Assembly (NCBI GenBank): GCA_022823365.1
Contig: JAJDXG010000056.1
Location: 372,001-436,000, forward strand
Source: Gemmatimonadota bacterium
GTDB lineage: Bacteria > Gemmatimonadota > Gemmatimonadetes > Longimicrobiales > Gaopeijiaceae
DNA length: 64,000 nt
Reading direction: 5' to 3'
Every line of letters starts with the position of its first letter. Positions within the stretch are counted from its first letter, which is position 1. The notes under the pieces are model-generated. The model was not told the DNA's origin, did not search any database, and was given only the letters and a program-made list of their open reading frames with translations. Positions 43,847 to 51,505 of the stretch are shown in pieces. The translations under genes were made by a program, and so were the position numbers.

Positions 43847-44938
43847 TCAGGCCATGGGGTGTCGATGAGTGGCGGAATACCGGCCCGTGACGTGATGCTC
43901 GATCTGGCGTTCGATGTCGCCCAGGAGGGAACTGGCGCCGAAGCGGAAGAGGCCGGCCTGCATCCAGCTGGGTCCCAGCTCCTCGCGCATGAGCACCAGC
44001 CAGACCAGCGCGTGCTTCGCGGTGCCGATGCCTCCGGCGGGCTTGAAGCCCACGCGGTAACCGGTGCGCTCGCGCCAGGCGCGGATCTGGCGCACCATGG
44101 TGAGGCCGACGGCCAGGGTGGCGTTGACCTTCTCCTTCCCCGTGGAGGTCTTGATGAAGTCGGCTCCCGCCATCATGCACACCAGGCTCGCGCGCGCGAC
44201 GTTGCTGAGGGTCGCGAGTTCGCCGGTGGCGATGATGGTCTTCAGGTGGGCGCCCCGGGCCGCCTCCCGGAAGGCGCCGACCTCGTCGTAGAGGTCGCCC
44301 CAGCGGCCGCGCAGCACATGCTCGCGGCTGATGACGATGTCGATCTCGGAGGCGCCCGCCGCCACGGCCGTCCGGATCTCGTCGAGCCGCTCGGGGAAGG
44401 GCGTCTGGCCGGCGGGGAAGCCCGCCGCCACGGCCGCCACGGGGATGCCGGACCCGGCAAGCGCTTCCACCGCGGTGGCCACCATGCTCGGGTAGACGCA
44501 CACGGACGCGACCTGGATGGGCAGCCCGGACGCACCCGCCGCTTCGAGCAGGTCGGCCCTCACGGGATTGCGGGCCTTGCCGCACAGCCTGCGCACCCGC
44601 CCGGGGGTGTCATCTCCCGCGAGGGTGGTGAGGTCGATGCAGGTCGCCGCGCGCAGGAGCCACGCCGCCTGCCACTCGCGCTTCACGCTCCTGCGGCCGG
44701 GCAGGGAAGCGGCCCGGCGCTCCGCGGCACTCCGGTTCACGCGCAGGTGGCGCAGCAAGTCGAGTTCGAGGGGCGTTCCCGGGTTCCACGGATGGAGGTC
44801 GGAGTGCACCGTCTGGTCTGGCGGCACCGGGACGTCGCGTGCGGACGGACGCGCCTCGTGGGGGTCGGGGGTCGCGGGCGACCGGTGCACCCTGCGGGCG
44901 AAGGCGGATGATCCGGTGGGGGTGACGTCGTCAGGCAT
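43847..44938 (-). CDS. deoC: Deoxyribose-phosphate aldolase with extended N-terminus
   Basis: About 363 residues. DERA splits 2-deoxyribose-5-phosphate into glyceraldehyde-3-phosphate and acetaldehyde. The Schiff-base lysine is in ADFIKTSTGKEKVNATL, the helper lysine in RVGFKPAGGIG, and the aspartate in SEIDIVISREH. The first 100 residues are an extension seen in the eukaryote-like DERA group, partly basic and probably poorly ordered (RVNRSAAERRAASLPGRRSVKREWQ). ATG at 44938 was chosen; the ribosome binding site is weak. The ALDH16 gene follows, which suggests a deoxynucleoside-salvage pathway ending in acetate. Confidence 0.88.
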   Translation of the reverse strand: MPDDVTPTGSSAFARRVHRSPATPDPHEARPSARDVPVPPDQTVHSDLHPWNPGTPLELDLLRHLRVNRSAAERRAASLPGRRSVKREWQAAWLLRAATCIDLTTLAGDDTPGRVRRLCGKARNPVRADLLEAAGASGLPIQVASVCVYPSMVATAVEALAGSGIPVAAVAAGFPAGQTPFPERLDEIRTAVAAGASEIDIVISREHVLRGRWGDLYDEVGAFREAARGAHLKTIIATGELATLSNVARASLVCMMAGADFIKTSTGKEKVNATLAVGLTMVRQIRAWRERTGYRVGFKPAGGIGTAKHALVWLVLMREELGPSWMQAGLFRFGASSLLGDIERQIEHHVTGRYSATHRHPMA

Positions 44939-45058
44939 GCACCAAGTTATTCCCGGACGGAGGTGATCTGCTACCCGGGCAGCGAAGGAGGCGACTCGCG
45001 GGGCCCCTCGATCCAACCGCGCGGGCGGCACGCGGAGGAGTCCTTGGACATCCCGCGG

Positions 45059-45092
45059 CCCAAACCCTCATGTAACTTCAGGGGTTGGCGTC
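45059..45092. promoter_or_regulatory. Dyad element upstream of deoC, similar to one upstream of the agmatinase gene
   Basis: A 34-base stretch containing, on the minus strand, CCCTGAAGTTACATGAGGG, an imperfect dyad reminiscent of MerR-family operators. A related element with about three quarters of its bases shared lies at 48484-48515. Each is about 110-120 bases upstream of a minus-strand gene (deoC, agmatinase). Regulation is inferred only from the similarity and the shared position. Confidence 0.3.
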
Positions 45093-45165
45093 ACCCACGG
45101 ACGCGTCGGGACAACTCTGCCGTGACCGGTGTCCAGGCGGGCAACTATCAGTGATATGGCGCCGA

Positions 45166-45300
45166 GGTTAGCTTCGAGATCCTGTGCGCACGGAGAAGCA
45201 AGGGGGCGGGTGCGGTCTGGTGACCTCAGCGGTCTTCAACCGTCTGGCCCGGCTAGAACCCGGGCTGGTGAGTTCGATTCTCACACGCTCCCGCCACTCC
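45166..45300 (+). repeat. Direct repeat, left copy, containing a degenerate tRNA-Sec
   Basis: About 135 bases resembling 50011-50148. The shared part starts at GGTTAGCTTC, diverges in the spacer, then runs nearly unbroken from the tRNA 5' end through CGCCACTCC. Within the tRNA the copies differ by three substitutions and a two-base deletion. The pair brackets about 4.7 kb. It looks like a tRNA duplication of the sort left by element integration or by tandem gene duplication. Confidence 0.75.
45202..45296 (+). pseudogene. Degenerate tRNA-Sec copy
   Basis: It matches the tRNA-Sec at 50048 over its whole length, including the encoded GCCA end. The anticodon loop is shortened from CTTCAAA to CTTCA by loss of two A residues. 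The D stem has a C opposite T (TGCGGT against ACCTCA), and one variable-loop base differs. A five-base anticodon loop should not decode, so I read this as a pseudogene. The T arm and variable stem are intact. Confidence 0.75.
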
Positions 45301-45411
45301 TGTTTGTAACTGTTTGCGAATACGTTACTTGTGAGCAATATGTCAGATTCGTTTTCACTCAGTATTCCTGAGCGAGAGCGGGGGCGGTAGGGCAACCTAC
45401 GGGAGTAGAAT

Positions 45412-45750
45412 GTGACCTGTGAATCCTTGGGCTACGCGCTTGCTTGCGCTGAGCTTCTGGGTGTGATTCTCGGTGCCTTCGGCGTTCTCCGGGAAAGCTT
45501 TCGTGACTTGGCGGCTGACCGGCCGTATGGCGAGGGTCGTTACGGAGAGGGTCCCTATGGGGGACAACCGGGCGCTGTCGCGGAGCGGTTGATCAAGCTG
45601 GCCGTACCCCTAGGGCTATTGCCCTCTGACCACATCCTGACGAACACGGATCAGCGAAGGAACGCCATTATGGCGATCGTAGGCGTCGCGGTCGTGGTAC
45701 TCGCCATGCTCGTGGATGTCGCTATCGTCAAGCCCGTCTGCATTGCTTGA
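45412..45750 (+). CDS. Small two-helix membrane protein of unknown function
   Basis: A 112-residue protein, not recognised. Two hydrophobic helices (LGYALACAELLGVILGAFGVL and AIMAIVGVAVVVLAMLVDVAIV) flank a loop with a repeated, Tyr/Gly-rich motif DRPYGEGRYGEGPYGGQPG. The GTG start at 45412 follows GGGAG. The DNA before it (45300-45411) is AT-rich for this genome and could contain its promoter. It is the first open frame after the degenerate tRNA-Sec copy, so it may be element cargo. Confidence 0.55.
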   Translation: MTCESLGYALACAELLGVILGAFGVLRESFRDLAADRPYGEGRYGEGPYGGQPGAVAERLIKLAVPLGLLPSDHILTNTDQRRNAIMAIVGVAVVVLAMLVDVAIVKPVCIA

Positions 45751-46007
45751 GAGGCTCGCGAGTGGCCACGTCCCCGGGAGCGATGGTCACTTAGGCTTGT
45801 GGCCTTGCCGTCCTCGAAGGCAGCCCGGAGCCGGTGCGATCCGTCGCGCACCCGGTAGCTTGCAGCCGTGAAGTCCTCGTGTTGCTGTTTGACCTGAGCT
45901 TGCTCAGCGGCTAGACGCCGTTTCTCCGCGATCCGCTTCGCGTTGCCTAGGCGCCTGCCGGTGATCTCCAGTACCTCTTCGGTGCGGAGATCGTCGTAGG
46001 GACTAGG
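45651..46007 (-). pseudogene. Start-less ParB-like remnant
   Basis: An open frame of 119 codons bounded upstream by TAG, with no ATG in its N-terminal part. It reads LRTEEVLEITGRRLGNAKRIAEKRR, then YRVRDGSHRLRAAFEDGKA. The DGSHR segment resembles the DGxHR motif of ParB/Srx-like N-terminal domains, but the order of elements does not match a full domain. The tail overlaps the membrane-protein gene on the other strand and is likely meaningless. I think it is a decayed gene of the integrated element. Confidence 0.35.
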
Positions 46008-46020
46008 CTAGGGCGGCGAG

Positions 46021-46187
46021 TCACGCGGCTTCGCGCTCCTCCATCCATGCGCGGATCTGTTGTGCGCGCCAGCCGATGCTGTTCATGCCGAAGCGCAGGG
46101 TGGATCTCGACAACGTCTCCTCAGAGTCGTGCGGCTCAGGCCGATCGCCGTGCAAACCTCTTTGGACCTCAGAATCCGCGTTTCCAT
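46021..46187 (-). pseudogene. Frameshifted AlpA-family transcriptional regulator
   Basis: From the ATG at 46187 the frame reads METRILRSKEVCTAIGLSRTTL, the N-terminal winged-helix start of AlpA/excisionase-like regulators, and then runs into nonsense and a stop. The other frame gives LRFGMNSIGWRAQQIRAWMEEREAA, a typical AlpA C-terminus, ending at 46021. The total of 167 bases is not a multiple of three and the joined protein lacks several residues in the turn, so a small deletion has broken the gene. AlpA proteins control integration and excision of prophages and islands. Confidence 0.6.
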
Positions 46188-46270
46188 CGTGTCCATCCGT
46201 GTGCAAGGTGGCCGCTGCACACTGACGAAAGCACGGAGCCCGATGCCGCACAGGGTCCACTATAGAGCTC

Positions 46271-46816
46271 CTATACTGACCACCCAGGGAACCGCTTCTT
46301 CATCCTCCGGTAGACGCTCCGGACGGTGTCTTCCTGCATTTCGAGGGCCTCGCCAATCTCCAGCAGCGCCTTCTCGTGCGTCCATCCACCACGGCGCATC
46401 AGCTTGAGTAGTCGCATGATCCCCATATCCCGCCGTAGTCGTGGCGCAAAACGAGGGTTCGCAGGCTTCCGGGGAGCCTTCAGGCTTCCGTTGAATCGTC
46501 GAATCGCCACGGTTACGGCAAAGTCCTTCAGAGCCACGGGAATTGGCTCTCCCCATTCCTGGAGGTGCTCCAAGAGACTGTGCAGACCGTCCCAGGCCCA
46601 TCGCTTCCTGAACGCGAAGTGCCGGTAGAACAGCAGGAGCTTGTGTTTGTGCTGATAGTCCTCGCCGTCCGTGTCGCCCACTTCTTCAGCCGCCATCCCG
46701 TACAAAACCCACCACATAGGGAGATCGGAGAGCGGAGGAGTCGCTTTGACCAATGCCCGGATGCGCTTGTGGACTTGATCGCGCGGGAGATCCGGGCCCA
46801 AATCGTTCTCATCCAT
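46271..46816 (-). CDS. Hypothetical protein with possible C-terminal helix-turn-helix
   Basis: A 181-residue protein that I do not recognise. The N-terminal two thirds are helical and aromatic-rich (PMWWVLYGMAAEEVG, LLLFYRHFAFRKRWAWDGL). The last 45 residues (GWTHEKALLEIGEALEMQEDTVRSVYRRMKKRFPGW) have the spacing of a helix-turn-helix DNA-binding segment. It stands alone on the minus strand next to the broken AlpA gene and its codon use is less GC-biased than its neighbours', so it is probably part of the integrated element. No clear ribosome binding site precedes the ATG. Confidence 0.55.
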   Translation of the reverse strand: MDENDLGPDLPRDQVHKRIRALVKATPPLSDLPMWWVLYGMAAEEVGDTDGEDYQHKHKLLLFYRHFAFRKRWAWDGLHSLLEHLQEWGEPIPVALKDFAVTVAIRRFNGSLKAPRKPANPRFAPRLRRDMGIMRLLKLMRRGGWTHEKALLEIGEALEMQEDTVRSVYRRMKKRFPGWSV

Positions 46817-47052
46817 GGCGATGACCGTCTCGGCGGCGTCCTCGAACGTTGGAATGGCGCCGCCCCGCGGATCGCCTCCCTAGGCGACGATGCGGCGATT
46901 CTCCAGCGCCGTCTTCCGGGCCATTTCCGGCCTCACGATCCTCAACCGTTGAGCCCAAGTCTTCGACAACGTGCTGGTCGTCGTAGGCTTCACGAGCAGC
47001 GACAAGCTGTGTCTCCCGCGGTCGTCGCCGTACCTGCCGTGGCGCCTCTGGA
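46817..47052. other. Element-edge region without an intact gene
   Basis: About 236 bases. On the minus strand a short frame ends in KTWAQRLRIVRPEMARKTALENRRIVA and then a stop at the CTAGG near 46882. It looks like the tail of a lost gene, but I cannot assign it. Nothing else is identified. Confidence 0.3.
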
Positions 47053-48375
47053 CTACCGATCCACCCCCCCAGGCCGCCCATCACTCCTGGTCAGCGGGCT
47101 CAGGTAATCCCGATTGCCGAGCCCCAGCTTCCGCAGGGCGACGCCGGTCAGGCATTCGTCCACCACCTGCTTGGCGTTGAGGGCGGTGGTGTAGCCCGGA
47201 TCGACCAACGGGTTGAGTTCCACCAGGTCGAAGCCCACCAGGTTGTTTTCGGAGCAGAGGCCGCGGAGGATGGGGAAGACTTCGCGCGGGGTCAGGCCTC
47301 CGGGCACGGGTGTGCCGGTGCCGGACGTGTACGCCGGGTCCATCACGTCGATGTCGAAGGAGACGTGGAGGTACTCGGGTCCGTCGTTGGCTTCGTCGAG
47401 AACGCGCTGCATTACCGTGGCCCATCCGTCGCGCTCGATCTCCGCCATGGTATGGTACCGGAATTCGTTCTCGCGCATCCACTCGAAGCCCTCCGGGCCG
47501 GGCCAGCTGCCCCGCAACCCCACCTGGATGAAGTTCCTGCCGAGGATGTGGCCGTCGTCGACGAGACGGCGCACGGGCTGGGCGTGCGAGATCAGGTGGC
47601 CCATCCGCGATCCGCCGGCGTCGTAGTGCGCATCAAAGTGGATGACGCCGACGTTCTCCTTGCCGTACACGTCCGCGAGCCCGGCCACGTTGGCGAATTC
47701 GATGGAGTGGTCGCCGCCGATGATCACCGGGATCGCGCCGGTCTCGGCGATCTCGCGCACCATTCGGCGGATCGGCTCCATGCTGCGCTCGACGCTGAAC
47801 TGGTCGATGGGCGCGTTCCCGTAGTCGACTGCCGTCAGTTCGCTGCGCCAACTGATCATCGTCTCCATGCTTCCCGTGCTCCGCCGCATGGCGCGCAGCG
47901 CGTTGGGCCCCTCGCCGGCGCCTCGGAAACCGACTCCCATGTCCACAGGCGCGCCCATGAACGCCACCTCGACCTCGCCCGCGACGAGGTCCTCGATGGT
48001 GCGTGCGATCGGGAGGCCGAAGAAGCTCAGCACTGAGCCGACCTCGATCGGGCCCGGTTCGCGGGGCGGGTCGCCTGAGATGTCGCGGTCGCGCCACACT
48101 TCGAGGTTCGGGTCGTTCGGGTCGAGGCGGATGATGGCGGCTTCGGGGTCGGGGGCTTCCTGCGCGGCGCTGTCCGTCTGCTGCGCGGCGGGATCGGCGG
48201 CGTCGCCCGCGGCGGCTGCGGCGTCCGCTTCGGTGCCGGGCGACGCGTCGTCCCCGGACTCCCTAGGCGACGCCTCGCAGGCAGCGGCCAGCAGGCCGGC
48301 GAGAAGCAACAGGCTGGTAAGCGAAGCCGCCGGCCCAGCCGCGCCAGAGCGTGAAGAAGGTGAACTGTCTCCCAT
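47053..48375 (-). CDS. Agmatinase/arginase family ureohydrolase, predicted lipoprotein
   Basis: About 440 residues. The binuclear manganese site is complete: VIIGGDHSIEFAN, VIHFDAHYDAG, and SFDIDVMDPAYTSGTGTPVPGG, with the terminal FDLVELNP. The family hydrolyses agmatine or related guanidino compounds to urea. Unusually, the protein starts with a lipoprotein signal (LLLLAGLLAAAC) and an Ala/Asp/Pro-rich linker of about 45 residues, so it should sit in the periplasm attached to a membrane. Substrate cannot be fixed by motif; guanidinobutyrase or other guanidino hydrolases are alternatives. A dyad element lies about 110 bases upstream. Confidence 0.82.
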   Translation of the reverse strand: MGDSSPSSRSGAAGPAASLTSLLLLAGLLAAACEASPRESGDDASPGTEADAAAAAGDAADPAAQQTDSAAQEAPDPEAAIIRLDPNDPNLEVWRDRDISGDPPREPGPIEVGSVLSFFGLPIARTIEDLVAGEVEVAFMGAPVDMGVGFRGAGEGPNALRAMRRSTGSMETMISWRSELTAVDYGNAPIDQFSVERSMEPIRRMVREIAETGAIPVIIGGDHSIEFANVAGLADVYGKENVGVIHFDAHYDAGGSRMGHLISHAQPVRRLVDDGHILGRNFIQVGLRGSWPGPEGFEWMRENEFRYHTMAEIERDGWATVMQRVLDEANDGPEYLHVSFDIDVMDPAYTSGTGTPVPGGLTPREVFPILRGLCSENNLVGFDLVELNPLVDPGYTTALNAKQVVDECLTGVALRKLGLGNRDYLSPLTRSDGRPGGVDR

Positions 48376-48483
48376 TTTGACGCTCCGTCGATTCGGCGCT
48401 TCTAGGCCTCGAAGGCTCCCGCCTCCAGGACCCTGCGGTTCGGCCAGACTACGATGGTCGGAGTTCGCCCGCCAGTTCGCAGC

Positions 48484-48515
48484 CCCAAGCCTTACGTAAC
48501 GTCAGGGTTGGACGT
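48484..48515. promoter_or_regulatory. Dyad element upstream of the agmatinase gene
   Basis: On the minus strand this reads CCAACCCTGACGTTACGTAA followed by GGCTTGG, close to the element at 45059-45092. The core TGACGTTACGTAA is a near-palindrome. Its place about 110 bases before the agmatinase start suggests an operator or promoter. No regulator gene is adjacent. Confidence 0.3.
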
Positions 48516-48534
48516 CGAGCCCCTGCGCGGCTCG

Positions 48535-49116
48535 TCACCACTCGTAGGGCGTAATCGAGGTGCCTGCCATCTTGAAGGACACCGATCCGTACAGGTTCGT
48601 CGTCTCCTCAACGGTCAGGGTGCCGTGGAGCCAGACAGGATTCCAGAAGGAGACTGGCACGCGCTGACCGTTCTCCATCCTCACGTAGACCAATTGGTTC
48701 GGGGGCGGGGGCGGGGTGTGCACGCAGGCCCCGACGTACGGGACCAGGAGGAACTCCGAGACCTCGCCGGCCCAGTCCTCCAGGGGGACCATGTATCCGG
48801 GCACCTTGACTCCTCGCCCCACGACCGACTCGAGTTTCCTGGACACCTCGCCCGTACGGTAATCCAGGGAGGCCAGCAGCTGCCAATCCACCTCGATGGA
48901 GTTCCCCGGGACACTGGCCGCGCGCATCCTCGCTCCATCGCTCCGATCGGCCAGGACGGAGCGGGGGCCCGACGTGAGCGCAAGCCAGCCGCCCATGATG
49001 ACCAGGGCGAATCGGAGGGGTGTCCAGGGAATCGGGAATCGGGAGCGCGGCTTTGGCACGTGGCAAGGGTCCTCGGCCTTCGGTGAACCAGGATGCCTTT
49101 CGGGGAACCAAGACAT
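48535..49116 (-). CDS. DUF3299 secreted protein
   Basis: About 193 residues. The DUF3299 core is distinct: KVPGYMVPLEDWAGEVSEF, FLLVPYVGACVHTPPPPPNQ and NGQRVPVSFWNPVWLHGTL. Members are periplasmic proteins often encoded next to ABC-type metal exporters or importers and to ZrgA-like proteins. The N-terminus carries a hydrophobic segment (LRFALVIMGGWLALTSG). The ATG at 49116 overlaps a Fur/Zur-like site. A GTG at 49059 with GAGGA ten bases upstream gives a shorter, more normal signal peptide and may be the true start. Confidence 0.75.
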   Translation of the reverse strand: MSWFPERHPGSPKAEDPCHVPKPRSRFPIPWTPLRFALVIMGGWLALTSGPRSVLADRSDGARMRAASVPGNSIEVDWQLLASLDYRTGEVSRKLESVVGRGVKVPGYMVPLEDWAGEVSEFLLVPYVGACVHTPPPPPNQLVYVRMENGQRVPVSFWNPVWLHGTLTVEETTNLYGSVSFKMAGTSITPYEW

Positions 49117-49137
49117 GATAACGAGAATACAATATCA
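49116..49137. promoter_or_regulatory. Fur/Zur-like operator between DUF3299 and ZrgA genes
   Basis: TGATAACGAGAATAC followed by AATATCA forms an imperfect palindrome (TGATA...TATCA) and its left half closely resembles the Fur-family half site GATAATGAGAAT. It lies in the divergent region between the DUF3299 and ZrgA-like genes, where a zinc-responsive Zur or iron-responsive Fur would control both. The assignment to Zur is inferred from the downstream ZrgA-like gene. Confidence 0.45.
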
Positions 49138-49173
49138 TTAATGCATCTACGCCATCATTAATGCATCTACGCC
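49134..49173 (+). repeat. Perfect tandem 20-bp repeat (two units)
   Basis: ATCATTAATGCATCTACGCC occurs twice in immediate succession, at 49134-49153 and 49154-49173. The second copy supplies an in-frame ATG at 49161 for the ZrgA-like gene and the first copy an ATG at 49141 in another frame. The unit contains the palindrome ATTAAT and the near-palindrome ATGCAT. It abuts the Fur/Zur-like site. Confidence 0.85.
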
Positions 49174-49205
49174 GTACGCGCGCAACCCGCACCGGGTCCC
49201 TCACC

Positions 49206-49901
49206 ATGACCTACCCCACTCTCGATCGACCCCAGGTCCGCTCCCTTTTCGTCGGGTGGACGATCCCGTGTCTTCTGCTGTGCGTCGCATGCGGCGATTC
49301 ACCCGCCCCGGATCCTGGTCCTCCCCTGGTCGAGGGCGAACGGTTGGGGACGGTTGGGGCCCACGAACATGGCATCGCCCGACTGGGTCTGGCCGTGGAC
49401 GGCACCCGCCTCACCGTCGACCTGGAACTCCCCGCGGAATCCGTGTTCGGCTTCGAGCGCGCCCCCCGCTCGGCGGAGGAGCGGGCGACCGTAGCGGCGG
49501 CCCTCGAGAGACTCCAAACCGGTGGCGCTCGTCTCATCGCCTTTCCGGACGGGGCGATCTGTACGCTGGATTCGGCGGAGGTGGAGGCGCCGGAAGTTGT
49601 GTTAGGCGACGATGCCGGCGAGGACCAGCAGCCTGAAGAGGATGAGGCCCACGTGCACGAAGAGGATGAGGCCCACGTGCACGAAGAGGACGAGGGTACC
49701 CAACACGAAGAGGACGAGGGCACCCAACACGAAGACGTGCACCTCCTTGCCTCCCTCACCTGTTCCCGTGAGCCCCTCGGACCGGCGAGCCTGCGGTTCG
49801 CGGACCTCCTGCCCGACGTGGTGCAGGTGGACCTGACGGTGTTCACCGCGGCAGGCGAGGCGGCCGGTCGCGTCGCGCCCGATGCCTCGTTCCGGTTCTG
49901 A
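49206..49901 (+). CDS. ZrgA/DUF2796 zinc-binding lipoprotein with acidic/His repeats
   Basis: About 231 residues. The lipobox is CLLLCVAC. The DUF2796 pattern follows: GAHEHGIARLGLAVDGTRLTVDLELPAESVFGFERAP. ZrgA of this family is a zinc-regulated periplasmic zinc-binding protein in Vibrio. Near residue 145 is a run of four eight-residue units, EEDEAHVH twice and EEDEGTQH twice, an obvious metal-binding loop. Cysteines in AICTLD and SLTCSRE may form a disulfide. The ATG at 49206 was chosen to give a compact signal peptide; an in-frame ATG at 49161 in the tandem repeat is an alternative. Confidence 0.75.
   Translation: MTYPTLDRPQVRSLFVGWTIPCLLLCVACGDSPAPDPGPPLVEGERLGTVGAHEHGIARLGLAVDGTRLTVDLELPAESVFGFERAPRSAEERATVAAALERLQTGGARLIAFPDGAICTLDSAEVEAPEVVLGDDAGEDQQPEEDEAHVHEEDEAHVHEEDEGTQHEEDEGTQHEDVHLLASLTCSREPLGPASLRFADLLPDVVQVDLTVFTAAGEAAGRVAPDASFRF
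49635..49730 (+). repeat. 24-bp coding repeat in the ZrgA-like gene (four units)
   Basis: Two perfect 24-base units encoding EEDEAHVH are followed by two near-identical 24-base units encoding EEDEGTQH. The second pair shares its first half with the first. This reflects stepwise tandem duplication of a metal-binding octapeptide and would be prone to copy-number change by slippage. Confidence 0.85.
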
Positions 49902-50010
49902 GCTGACGAGCCGGGAGTACCGTTTCGGCACCGACCTGGCCAGCTTCGGCGTCCCGCCGCTGGCCGCATCTCCAAACCGCGCCCGCAGTCTGTCAGCACG
50001 ACCGGACCTG

Positions 50011-50148
50011 GGTTAGCTTCCCCGATACCCGTCCGCCGGAGCAGCGAGGGGGCGGGTGGGGTCTGGTGACCCCAGCGGTCTTCAAAACCGTCTGGCCCGG
50101 CTTGAACCCGGGCTGGTGAGTTCGATTCTCACACGCTCCCGCCACTCC
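50011..50148 (+). repeat. Direct repeat, right copy, containing the intact tRNA-Sec
   Basis: About 138 bases resembling 45166-45300, from GGTTAGCTTC through the tRNA to CGCCACTCC. Sequence beyond both ends is unrelated in the two copies. The two copies are in the same orientation, as expected of integration or recombination borders. Confidence 0.75.
50048..50144 (+). tRNA. selC: tRNA-Sec (anticodon TCA)
   Basis: The 97-base gene has the features peculiar to selenocysteine tRNA. A six-base D stem TGGGGT/ACCCCA encloses CTGGTG. The anticodon loop CTTCAAA gives TCA, reading UGA. A long variable arm has the stem GCCCGG/CCGGGC. The T arm is GTGAG-TTCGATT-CTCAC. The acceptor GGGGGCG pairs with CGCTCCC with one G-T pair, and GCCA is encoded. 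An eighth acceptor pair would be G-A, so the helix seems one pair short of the usual eight. The genome should therefore decode UGA as selenocysteine. No selenoprotein or selA/selB gene is visible in the window. Confidence 0.85.
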
Positions 50149-50209
50149 GGATCCTCGAGGTTGCCCGCCTTCGCCGAAGGCGACGAAACACACAGGCTAT
50201 TGGGCGCAA

Positions 50210-51145
50210 ATGCCGCGGACGCTCCCCCTGCTCTTGCTCGTGGTTGCCGCGCTGACGGCGACCGATGCCTCCGGCCAGACCTGGAGGGGGCTGGTCGTAG
50301 CCCCCGAGCAGCGCTGTTCGCCCTACCGCGCCGATGACTACAGCTACCCCCAATCCGTCGAAGCCTCGATCGTCCGCGAACTCGGCGGCATCTACTCTCC
50401 CTACACGGGCCAGCGCTTTGCCTCCACCGGGGAGACCGACATCGAGCACATGGTCGCGCGCAGCGAGGCCCACGACTCGGGGCTCTGCGCGGCCGGCCTC
50501 GAGACCCGCCGCGCCTTCGCCCGCGACCTGCTCAACCTGACGCTCGCAAGCCCGGGATTGAACCGTGGGTTCAAGGGCGCGAGCGATGCCGCCGAATGGA
50601 TGCCGCAGCGAAACCGGTGCTGGTTTGCCGCACGTGTGGTGGCAGTCCGGCAGCGCTGGGGCCTTACCATCGACGCGCGAGAAGCCGAGACGCTGGAAGC
50701 GGTTCTGTCCGGCTGCGCGACCACCGAACTGGACGTCAGCGGCGGCGATTGGGCCGATGCGGTGCATGGGTCCCTGGCCTCGGCCGACGCCTTGCGGCTG
50801 TGGGACGACAACGGGAGCGGGACCATCACGTGCGCGGAGGCTCGGCGCCACGGAATCGCCCCGGTGCCGCGGGACCATCCGGCCTATCCGTTCATGCGGG
50901 ATGGAGATGGCGACGGCGTCGTGTGTGAGCAGGCCGGTGAGCCCGCGGGTGCATCGCAGGCTCCCGCGCGGCAGACGGGGTTGCCTGACGCCCTTCGGCT
51001 GTGGGACGACAACGGGAACGGGATGATCACGTGCGCTGAAGCACGGCGTCACGGAATCGCCCCCGTTCGCCGCGGCCACCCGGCCTATCCGTTCATGCGG
51101 GACGCCGACGGCAATGGCGTCGTCTGCGAGCGGAACGAGGGGTAG
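50210..51145 (+). CDS. Secreted HNH nuclease with two excalibur calcium-binding domains
   Basis: About 311 residues. After a signal peptide (LPLLLLVVAALTATDASGQ), a DUF1524-like HNH domain shows DIEHMVARSEAHDSGLC, ARDLLNLTLASPGLNRGFKGASDAAEW and MPQRNRCWFAARVV, which carry the expected His and Asn of a nuclease. The C-terminal third contains two near-identical excalibur-type units (ALRLWDDNGSGTITCAEARRHGIAPV ... YPFMRDGDGDGVVCE, repeated at the end), with DxDxDG calcium loops. Secreted HNH-excalibur nucleases may degrade extracellular DNA for nutrition or act on competing cells. It lies 65 bases downstream of tRNA-Sec. Confidence 0.82.
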   Translation: MPRTLPLLLLVVAALTATDASGQTWRGLVVAPEQRCSPYRADDYSYPQSVEASIVRELGGIYSPYTGQRFASTGETDIEHMVARSEAHDSGLCAAGLETRRAFARDLLNLTLASPGLNRGFKGASDAAEWMPQRNRCWFAARVVAVRQRWGLTIDAREAETLEAVLSGCATTELDVSGGDWADAVHGSLASADALRLWDDNGSGTITCAEARRHGIAPVPRDHPAYPFMRDGDGDGVVCEQAGEPAGASQAPARQTGLPDALRLWDDNGNGMITCAEARRHGIAPVRRGHPAYPFMRDADGNGVVCERNEG

Positions 51146-51235
51146 CCGGAGCGCAGGGGCGGGACCGTTGGTTCCGTCAGCGCTTCAGTACCTTCCCTGT
51201 TGCGCCATCCAGGCGCACCGCGCACCGTACCCATC

Positions 51236-51505
51236 ATGAAATCCTTCTTCCCCCTGCGGCGCGGAGAGGGTGCGACGCTCGTCTTCCTGATCGCCTTCTC
51301 CGCGTTTGCGTTCATCCCTCAGTGGCGCACCATCGAGGCGGGCGGCATGGCCGTCTTCGGCTGGCTCATCGCCGCGCTGATGCTGGTTTCGCCGGCGCTG
51401 GCCCTCGTCACCATCCTGCGGCGTGACGGGACGGGAGGCGCGGGGGCCGCGGCGGGCGGAGCGGCACCCGATGCGGCCGCGGAAGACGATCGGGGAGACG
51501 CCTGA
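51236..51505 (+). CDS. Small two-helix membrane protein preceding a symporter
   Basis: An 89-residue protein with two hydrophobic helices (ATLVFLIAFSAFAFIPQW and MAVFGWLIAALMLVSPALALVTIL) and an Ala/Gly-rich acidic tail. It overlaps the symporter start by one base (TGATG), the same arrangement as the DUF3311-like protein before the first symporter at 15.4 kb. I infer a partner role, but its sequence is not close to that protein. Confidence 0.6.
   Translation: MKSFFPLRRGEGATLVFLIAFSAFAFIPQWRTIEAGGMAVFGWLIAALMLVSPALALVTILRRDGTGGAGAAAGGAAPDAAAEDDRGDA

Follow-up and report, generated by a model that had tools for sequence, protein, structure and literature searches.

The window, by which we mean the whole 64,000-nucleotide stretch of DNA analysed, contains two tRNA-Sec genes in the same orientation that bracket a 4.8-kb segment between a DeoC/LacD-family aldolase gene and an Excalibur-domain gene. 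The left 1.75 kb of this bracket, and only this part, is occupied by the wreck of an integrative element, which follows the first tRNA-Sec copy directly on its 3' side. The features of the locus are as follows:

43847–45031, minus strand: DeoC/LacD-family aldolase gene, left neighbour of the first tRNA-Sec copy (Pfam DeoC, E 9e-19)
45166–45201, plus strand: 5' flank of the first tRNA-Sec copy, common to the flank of the intact copy and to relatives (blastn, alignments)
45202–45296, plus strand: first tRNA-Sec copy, degenerate (Rfam, ARAGORN, alignment, predicted fold)
45300–47048, no strand assigned: wreck of an integrative element (low G+C; no DNA match at the locus in relatives)
45412–45750, plus strand: open frame of 112 residues, a small membrane protein by eye, possible cargo
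45798–45852, minus strand: scrap of the HTH-protein gene that comes next after AlpA in the intact element (blastn to L113)
46021–46187, minus strand: broken gene for an AlpA-type regulator or excisionase, its halves in two frames (profile and homology matches)
46271–46816, minus strand: open frame of 181 residues that starts inside the integrase stump, the rest being a conserved element gene (overlap and relatives)
46793–47047, minus strand: stump of a P4-type tyrosine integrase (about residues 28–126 of 395), with an in-frame stop and a 14-residue gap
47053–48375, minus strand: arginase/agmatinase-family gene, possible cargo (Pfam Arginase, E 4e-74)
48535–49116, minus strand: DUF3299 gene, possible cargo (Pfam, E 1.6e-32)
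49161–49901, plus strand: ZrgA zinc-uptake family gene, possible cargo (Pfam, E 2e-34)
50048–50144, plus strand: intact tRNA-Sec gene (selC), the far end of the bracket (Rfam, ARAGORN, predicted fold)
50210–51145, plus strand: Excalibur/GmrSD_C-domain gene, the right-hand neighbour (present in G003, G005 and G006 too)

A sequence-only reading of this DNA had recognized at 46021–46187 an AlpA protein split between two frames, one with its front half and one with its back half; the coordinates and strand proved exact. The first frame (46187–46104, minus strand) encodes METRILRSKEVCTAIGLSRTTLRRRCRD, the front half, and the second (46098–46024, minus strand, with a stop at 46021) encodes LRFGMNSIGWRAQQIRAWMEEREAA, the back half. 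We joined the two halves by eye with an X and searched 116 genomes of the family with this read-through; the set was drawn from a larger group and included the window's own genome. The intact version that the earlier reading had suggested seeking in related genomes was found on contig C474 of the same-genus genome G002 (locus L113; 56% identity, residues 2–55). Aligned to this intact AlpA by tblastn, the front half is 75% identical over 28 residues (42.0 bits) and the back half 52% identical over 25 residues (35.4 bits), with a combined E of 1.5e-13; the top score among 116 control stretches (55 of other window DNA and 61 of reversed window DNA) was 26.2 bits. At the DNA level, positions 46123–46160 match L113 with 87% identity (E 1e-5).

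The profile check that had been proposed for the two frames gave a match above cut-off for the read-through, which scores 23.0 bits against Pfam Phage_AlpA (PF05930; cut-off 21, E 7e-5). It also matches PHROG 66 (excisionase) at E 1.5e-6, and its HTH_17 score of 20.1 is below the cut-off of 27. The front half alone scores 15.3 bits against Phage_AlpA (E 0.018), below the cut-off, and the back half alone gave no match in the Pfam search, so that membership of PF05930 belongs to the eye-joined read-through only. With the untrimmed 45-residue front frame, the top Pfam match is RWP-RK (E 0.0014, below cut-off) and AlpA ranks fourth (E 0.05). The NCBIfam search returned no match above cut-off for the AlpA gene, and a Pfam search for AlpA across the window's whole genome returned none at E ≤ 0.01. 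From the alignment coordinates, 13 nt of the intact relative are missing between the halves, so that the break is not a one-base slip. Judged by its sequence, the gene, split over two frames with these nucleotides missing instead of forming a single open frame, is a pseudogene of the Phage_AlpA family.

The integrase stump lies 0.6 kb upstream of the broken AlpA gene on the same strand. It aligns to an intact integrase of 395 residues encoded elsewhere in the window's own genome (contig C39 of G000) with 51% identity over 99 columns (E 4e-22, 82.8 bits). The intact protein has Arm-DNA-bind_3, Phage_int_M and Phage_integrase domains, and because the last of these spans residues 220–376, the catalytic part is gone from the stump. 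Against Arm-DNA-bind_3 the stump scores 15 bits, below the cut-off of 27; of the arm, core and catalytic domains that define a P4-type integrase it retains an N-terminal part only. The intact integrase gene (G000:C39:265–1449; L116, L117) lies close to the end of its contig, and the same cell may therefore harbour a live counterpart of the wrecked integrase.

The order integrase, intervening gene, AlpA, with an integrase of this kind on the same strand and within about 1.5 kb upstream, was found at 8 of 19 AlpA loci, which were examined from 64 matches listed (two of them the window itself). At one of the eight (L109) the integrase consists of weaker, broken pieces, and another (L094) is on the L113 contig that also supplied the comparison proteins. 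The remaining 11 loci are without such an integrase within the stretch examined. The window shows the same linkage of a PF05930 gene to an integrase of the same element, the stump standing upstream on the same strand. AlpA-like matches at E ≤ 0.01 occur in 30 of the 116 family genomes, the window's own counted, and AlpA by itself is therefore not the direct evidence of mobile DNA that it had been taken for. The mobile origin stands nevertheless, settled by the integrase stump together with the module order at the eight loci; the corresponding modules in relatives identify the wreck as an integrative element that is now immobile.

The gene between integrase and AlpA, the frame of 181 residues, matches none of the families searched, and a search of viral contigs found no relative of it. 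The only relatives found are in G010:C9 and G003:C24, which with the window's own genome makes 3 of 121 family genomes. The gene in the same position at L113 is a different one (BLASTP E 43). The 181-residue product is predicted, with low confidence (mean pLDDT 67, 3 sequences), to be all-helical. G010:C9 (L050) is a 7.2-kb contig that carries relaxase and MobC/NikA genes along with the homologue of this frame, and may be a mobilisable element from this genus.

On the other side of AlpA, the scrap at 45798–45852 aligns to L113:1266–1321 with 78.6% identity over 56 nt (blastn, E 3.6e-5), and a tblastn search of this region with the L113 protein that follows AlpA gave no match at E ≤ 0.02. A ParB-like label assigned by eye to the gene after AlpA was abandoned, the intact gene having only weak HTH hits in Pfam. 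The 112-residue frame matches no Pfam family at E ≤ 1 and has only weak matches in PHROGs and NCBIfam. The wreck as a whole has a G+C content of 0.612, compared with a mean of 0.688 (sd 0.022) for 1750-bp sliding stretches of the window (n = 249); just one of the 249, which starts at 45250 and overlies the wreck, is as low. Apart from the tRNA copy, the wreck DNA is unmatched at this locus in the same-genus loci compared.

On the evidence of these sequences, then, an integrative element with a P4-type integrase and AlpA once stood between the first tRNA-Sec copy and the arginase gene. The element is evidently unable to move by itself, since its integrase is reduced and carries a stop and a gap, its AlpA gene is out of frame and shortened, and its next gene is at best a scrap. 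The earlier statement that mobile DNA at this place is now immobilised is borne out by the damage to AlpA and by the stop, gap and lost catalytic domain of the integrase.

Both tRNA-Sec copies score above the Rfam gathering score of 47 (45202–45292, 60.4 bits; 50048–50140, 74.8 bits). ARAGORN reports the copy at 45202–45296 as tRNA-Leu(caa) and the copy at 50048–50144 as tRNA-Sec. Aligned to the intact copy, the first copy is two bases short in the anticodon region and changed in the D arm. It is predicted to fold with an anticodon loop of 5 nt and an altered acceptor; the predicted fold of the second copy is canonical. The first copy looks damaged. The genome encodes SelB (310 bits, curated cut-off 242).

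The region 45166–45300 matches same-genus tRNA-Sec loci with 89–90% identity (blastn). Between DeoC and the first copy, positions 45005–45165 align, through a degenerate copy of a palindrome (see below), to the joined flanks of an insertion in the same-genus genome G001, with a local score of 46 (best of 1000 mononucleotide shuffles, 27.5). Over the whole stretch compared with G001, 242 of 288 aligned columns agree and 85 columns are gaps; the tRNA-Sec copy with its flank comes next in both, and the window has about 49 extra bases between the palindrome and the flank. By this alignment, the ancestral place beside DeoC is most likely the one that the first tRNA-Sec copy occupies.

The G001 insertion differs from the wreck and occupies the same DeoC–tRNA-Sec interval (L045:3–221, on G001:C3; L070, on G001:C28, near DeoC). 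It splits the palindrome at its core. Immediately upstream of the intact tRNA-Sec gene of G001 is the end of an integrase C-terminus, which matches PHROG 1 (E 2.4e-7) and with 17.4 bits stays under the Pfam cut-off.

Among 295 genomes of the class searched, 219 had any tRNA-Sec match and just two, the window's own and G142, had two matches listed at E ≤ 1e-10, a count that takes in no weaker second matches. The two strong matches of G142 are on two short contigs (L165, L166). A search of 59 genomes at E ≤ 1e-7 gave a similar pair of strong matches on two short contigs in G021 (L163, L164), and in several of the 59 there were weaker second matches, of up to 53.5 bits, on other contigs. Each of the pairs in G142 and G021 could be either a bracketed island or the product of a mixed bin.

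Ten further genomes of the genus were searched, and the DeoC gene was found in nine. DeoC directly adjoins a single tRNA-Sec gene in G005 and G006 of this genus and in G014 and G018 of other genera, which is the empty site in the sense of the Islander definition; G001 has the same empty site once its own insertion is set aside. Of 17 stretches from other genera, only 7 have DeoC within 4 kb of tRNA-Sec, and none shows an arginase, DUF3299 or ZrgA gene near tRNA-Sec (E ≤ 1e-6).

Four same-genus genomes have part or all of the right-hand gene block between DeoC and tRNA-Sec without the wreck: arginase alone in G003, arginase and ZrgA in G004 and G010, and arginase, DUF3299 and ZrgA in G009. Homology of the window to these four starts at 47053. 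In G003 the DeoC block touches the arginase block; in G004, G009 and G010 the two lie 107–111 nt apart, and the gap contains a second copy of the tRNA-Sec 5' flank that lacks the tRNA. In G002 and G008, DUF3299 and ZrgA stand beside DeoC without arginase, and the contigs end within ZrgA. As these genes occur in relatives that lack the wreck, the earlier proposal that mobile DNA occupied the tRNA-Sec-bracketed segment holds for 45300–47048 and is an overstatement for the bracket as a whole.

The arginase orthologues at the DeoC–tRNA-Sec site are about 95% identical to that of the window. A wider search found 176 arginase loci, of which 80 were kept and 28 examined; three of the 28 are at the DeoC–tRNA-Sec site, and 25 have neither DeoC nor tRNA-Sec in the stretch examined. 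The closest relative by identity, G006 (95.3%), is without the arginase block, and tree support at the node of the window genome is weak (44). The G+C content of the arginase, DUF3299 and ZrgA genes is ordinary (0.65–0.69). On G004:C36 (L044:18430–19599), an integrase 48% identical to that of G000:C39 lies just after an ALDH gene on the other side of DeoC; it is a further insertion near the same locus.

A palindrome, AACCCTNACGTNACGTNAGGGTT, lies at 48487–48511 between the arginase and DUF3299 genes, and a degenerate copy recognized by eye lies beside DeoC at about 45062–45088. We considered it as an attachment site or hallmark of the island. Counted on both strands with up to 3 mismatches, the pattern AACCCT-N-ACGT...-AGGGTT has 1 to 11 matches in each of 11 genomes of the genus, and its reversed control has none in the same 11. 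The palindrome was therefore dropped as an island hallmark; by its form and recurrence it looks like an operator, presumably of the MerR type. The repeats listed for 44000–51500 do not include a tRNA-end copy next to the integrase stump where it faces arginase. ARAGORN found no tRNA in nine longer stretches that carry such integrase or AlpA genes, so we can only infer that the tRNA-Sec gene was the insertion site of this element.

The reading that we favour, and hold to be probable, is that the locus is a decayed P4-type integrase/AlpA island at the native tRNA-Sec site, the intact far tRNA-Sec gene and the cargo most likely being parts of the same island. In a living element of this kind, the integrase would recombine the circular form with the tRNA-Sec gene, and AlpA, by analogy with CP4-type AlpA proteins, would serve as a regulator or as the excisionase for the reverse step. 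The arginase, DUF3299 and ZrgA genes would be its cargo, and the intact tRNA-Sec gene with the second 5' flank most likely came as its far end. The island would thus have brought its own complete tRNA-Sec gene, and the native copy would have decayed. The two copies could later recombine and so delete the island; relatives may have lost either the old tRNA-Sec copy or the cargo.

Several results count against this reading. A textbook island at a tRNA site has just a fragment of the tRNA at one of its ends, and an integrase alone does not explain the second full tRNA-Sec gene with a flank of its own. The module is not uniform, its middle gene differing between the window and L113 and most of the AlpA loci showing no such integrase within the stretch examined. 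The proposed cargo genes have ordinary G+C, G006 lacks the arginase block, and the window genome is placed at a poorly supported node of the tree. DeoC lies near tRNA-Sec in a minority of the other-genus stretches, no tRNA-end repeat is listed at the arginase end, and the extra bases relative to G001 fall just before the flank.

An alternative is a tandem duplication of tRNA-Sec and its flank by ordinary recombination, after which arginase, DUF3299 and ZrgA and, separately, the element landed between the copies; the bracket would then not be the footprint of one island. We regard this course of events as unlikely, though it is the most serious of the alternatives. In the window the duplicated block extends 36 nt upstream of the tRNA, and in the remnant in G004, G009 and G010 it reaches further; such upstream sequence is not needed by site-specific recombination at a tRNA. 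The arginase block without the wreck in G003, G004, G009 and G010 points the same way, and the patchy distribution of the cargo would agree with a duplication followed by separate insertions. Against it, several independent events would be required at one place, and two strong tRNA-Sec matches are rare in the class (the two genomes among 219 noted above, weaker second matches uncounted).

The two remaining alternatives concern AlpA itself, and we give each very little credence. Decay of a stand-alone chromosomal HTH gene unconnected to mobile DNA would accord with the frequency of AlpA-like matches in the family and with the AlpA loci at which no matching integrase was seen in the stretch examined; the integrase stump, which lies upstream on this strand in the order seen at 8 of the 19 loci, contradicts it, the low G+C and the absence from the same locus in relatives also count against it, and of all the alternatives it is the least credible. 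An assembly error that shifted the frame of an intact AlpA gene is scarcely more so. The genome is a draft of 63 contigs, which favours an error of this sort; the gene, however, lacks 13 nt at the join, the integrase is broken independently by a stop, a gap and the loss of its catalytic domain, and several differences separate the adjacent tRNA copy from the intact one.

To return to the decayed island, it may have gone further and taken over the function of the native gene, a possibility that we rate at slightly under even. The island would have carried a complete, expressed tRNA-Sec gene with its flank, which replaced the native copy; the window would be an intermediate stage, and G003, G004, G009 and G010 the end stage, with the native copy gone and its flank left in three of them. 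If this is true, a tRNA with a single-copy duty was replaced by the copy of a mobile element, and the locus shows how an island makes itself hard to lose: with the host tRNA-Sec dead, loss of the island's copy would bring selenoprotein synthesis to an end. A decayed AlpA gene or a decayed island at a tRNA site is ordinary, and the possible takeover of a tRNA gene is the unusual part. Apart from this, the locus illustrates, in a lineage beyond the well-studied bacteria, how a mobile element died where it stood, next to a tRNA-Sec gene.

The integrases of CP4-57 and CP4So are of the P4 type. According to the available text of the reports on these elements, each combines an integrase with an AlpA-family regulator (PMC2704930; PMC5148205), and excision of CP4So requires AlpA (PMC5148205). 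The window likewise has integrase and AlpA together; in contrast to those elements, both are broken here, the gene between them is without a family match, and the host belongs to an uncultured lineage. AlpA beside an integrase and islands at selC were thus already known, the latter from AGI-3 of E. coli, a genomic island integrated at selC, as the same available text describes (PMC2704930). As in AGI-3, the tRNA-Sec gene is the apparent insertion site, whereas here two full-length tRNA-Sec genes bracket the segment and the copy at the ancestral place is damaged.

Islands in the Islander collection, as defined in the available part of its description, consist of one tRNA gene and one displaced fragment, and hits that lie within a full-length tRNA gene are filtered out (PMC4383910). 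In the window the two copies have the same orientation and the integrase stump lies between them, but the second piece is a full-length gene, which this filter would remove. Tycheposons are described in the portion of their report available to us as segments of cargo that are bordered by a tRNA gene and have a tyrosine recombinase (PMC10872708). The window resembles them, by description only, in the tRNA at the border; its recombinase is a broken P4-type integrase. The available text of the Secmarker survey reports bacteria with two tRNA-Sec genes, the copies standing in sel operons or having compensating changes, and not at island ends as here (PMC5330540). The literature covered, thin for subscription journals, yielded nothing describing an island bracketed by two full tRNA-Sec genes.

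Two repeats were seen in the right part of the locus. Within the Excalibur-domain gene, 50786–51131 consists of two 145-nt copies, 83% identical, that cover its Excalibur repeat. A perfect 20-nt tandem repeat at 49134–49173, single in G002, lies in the divergent promoter of DUF3299 and ZrgA. Beside it is an AT-rich TGATA...TATCA motif, which we presume could be an operator of the Zur/Fur type.
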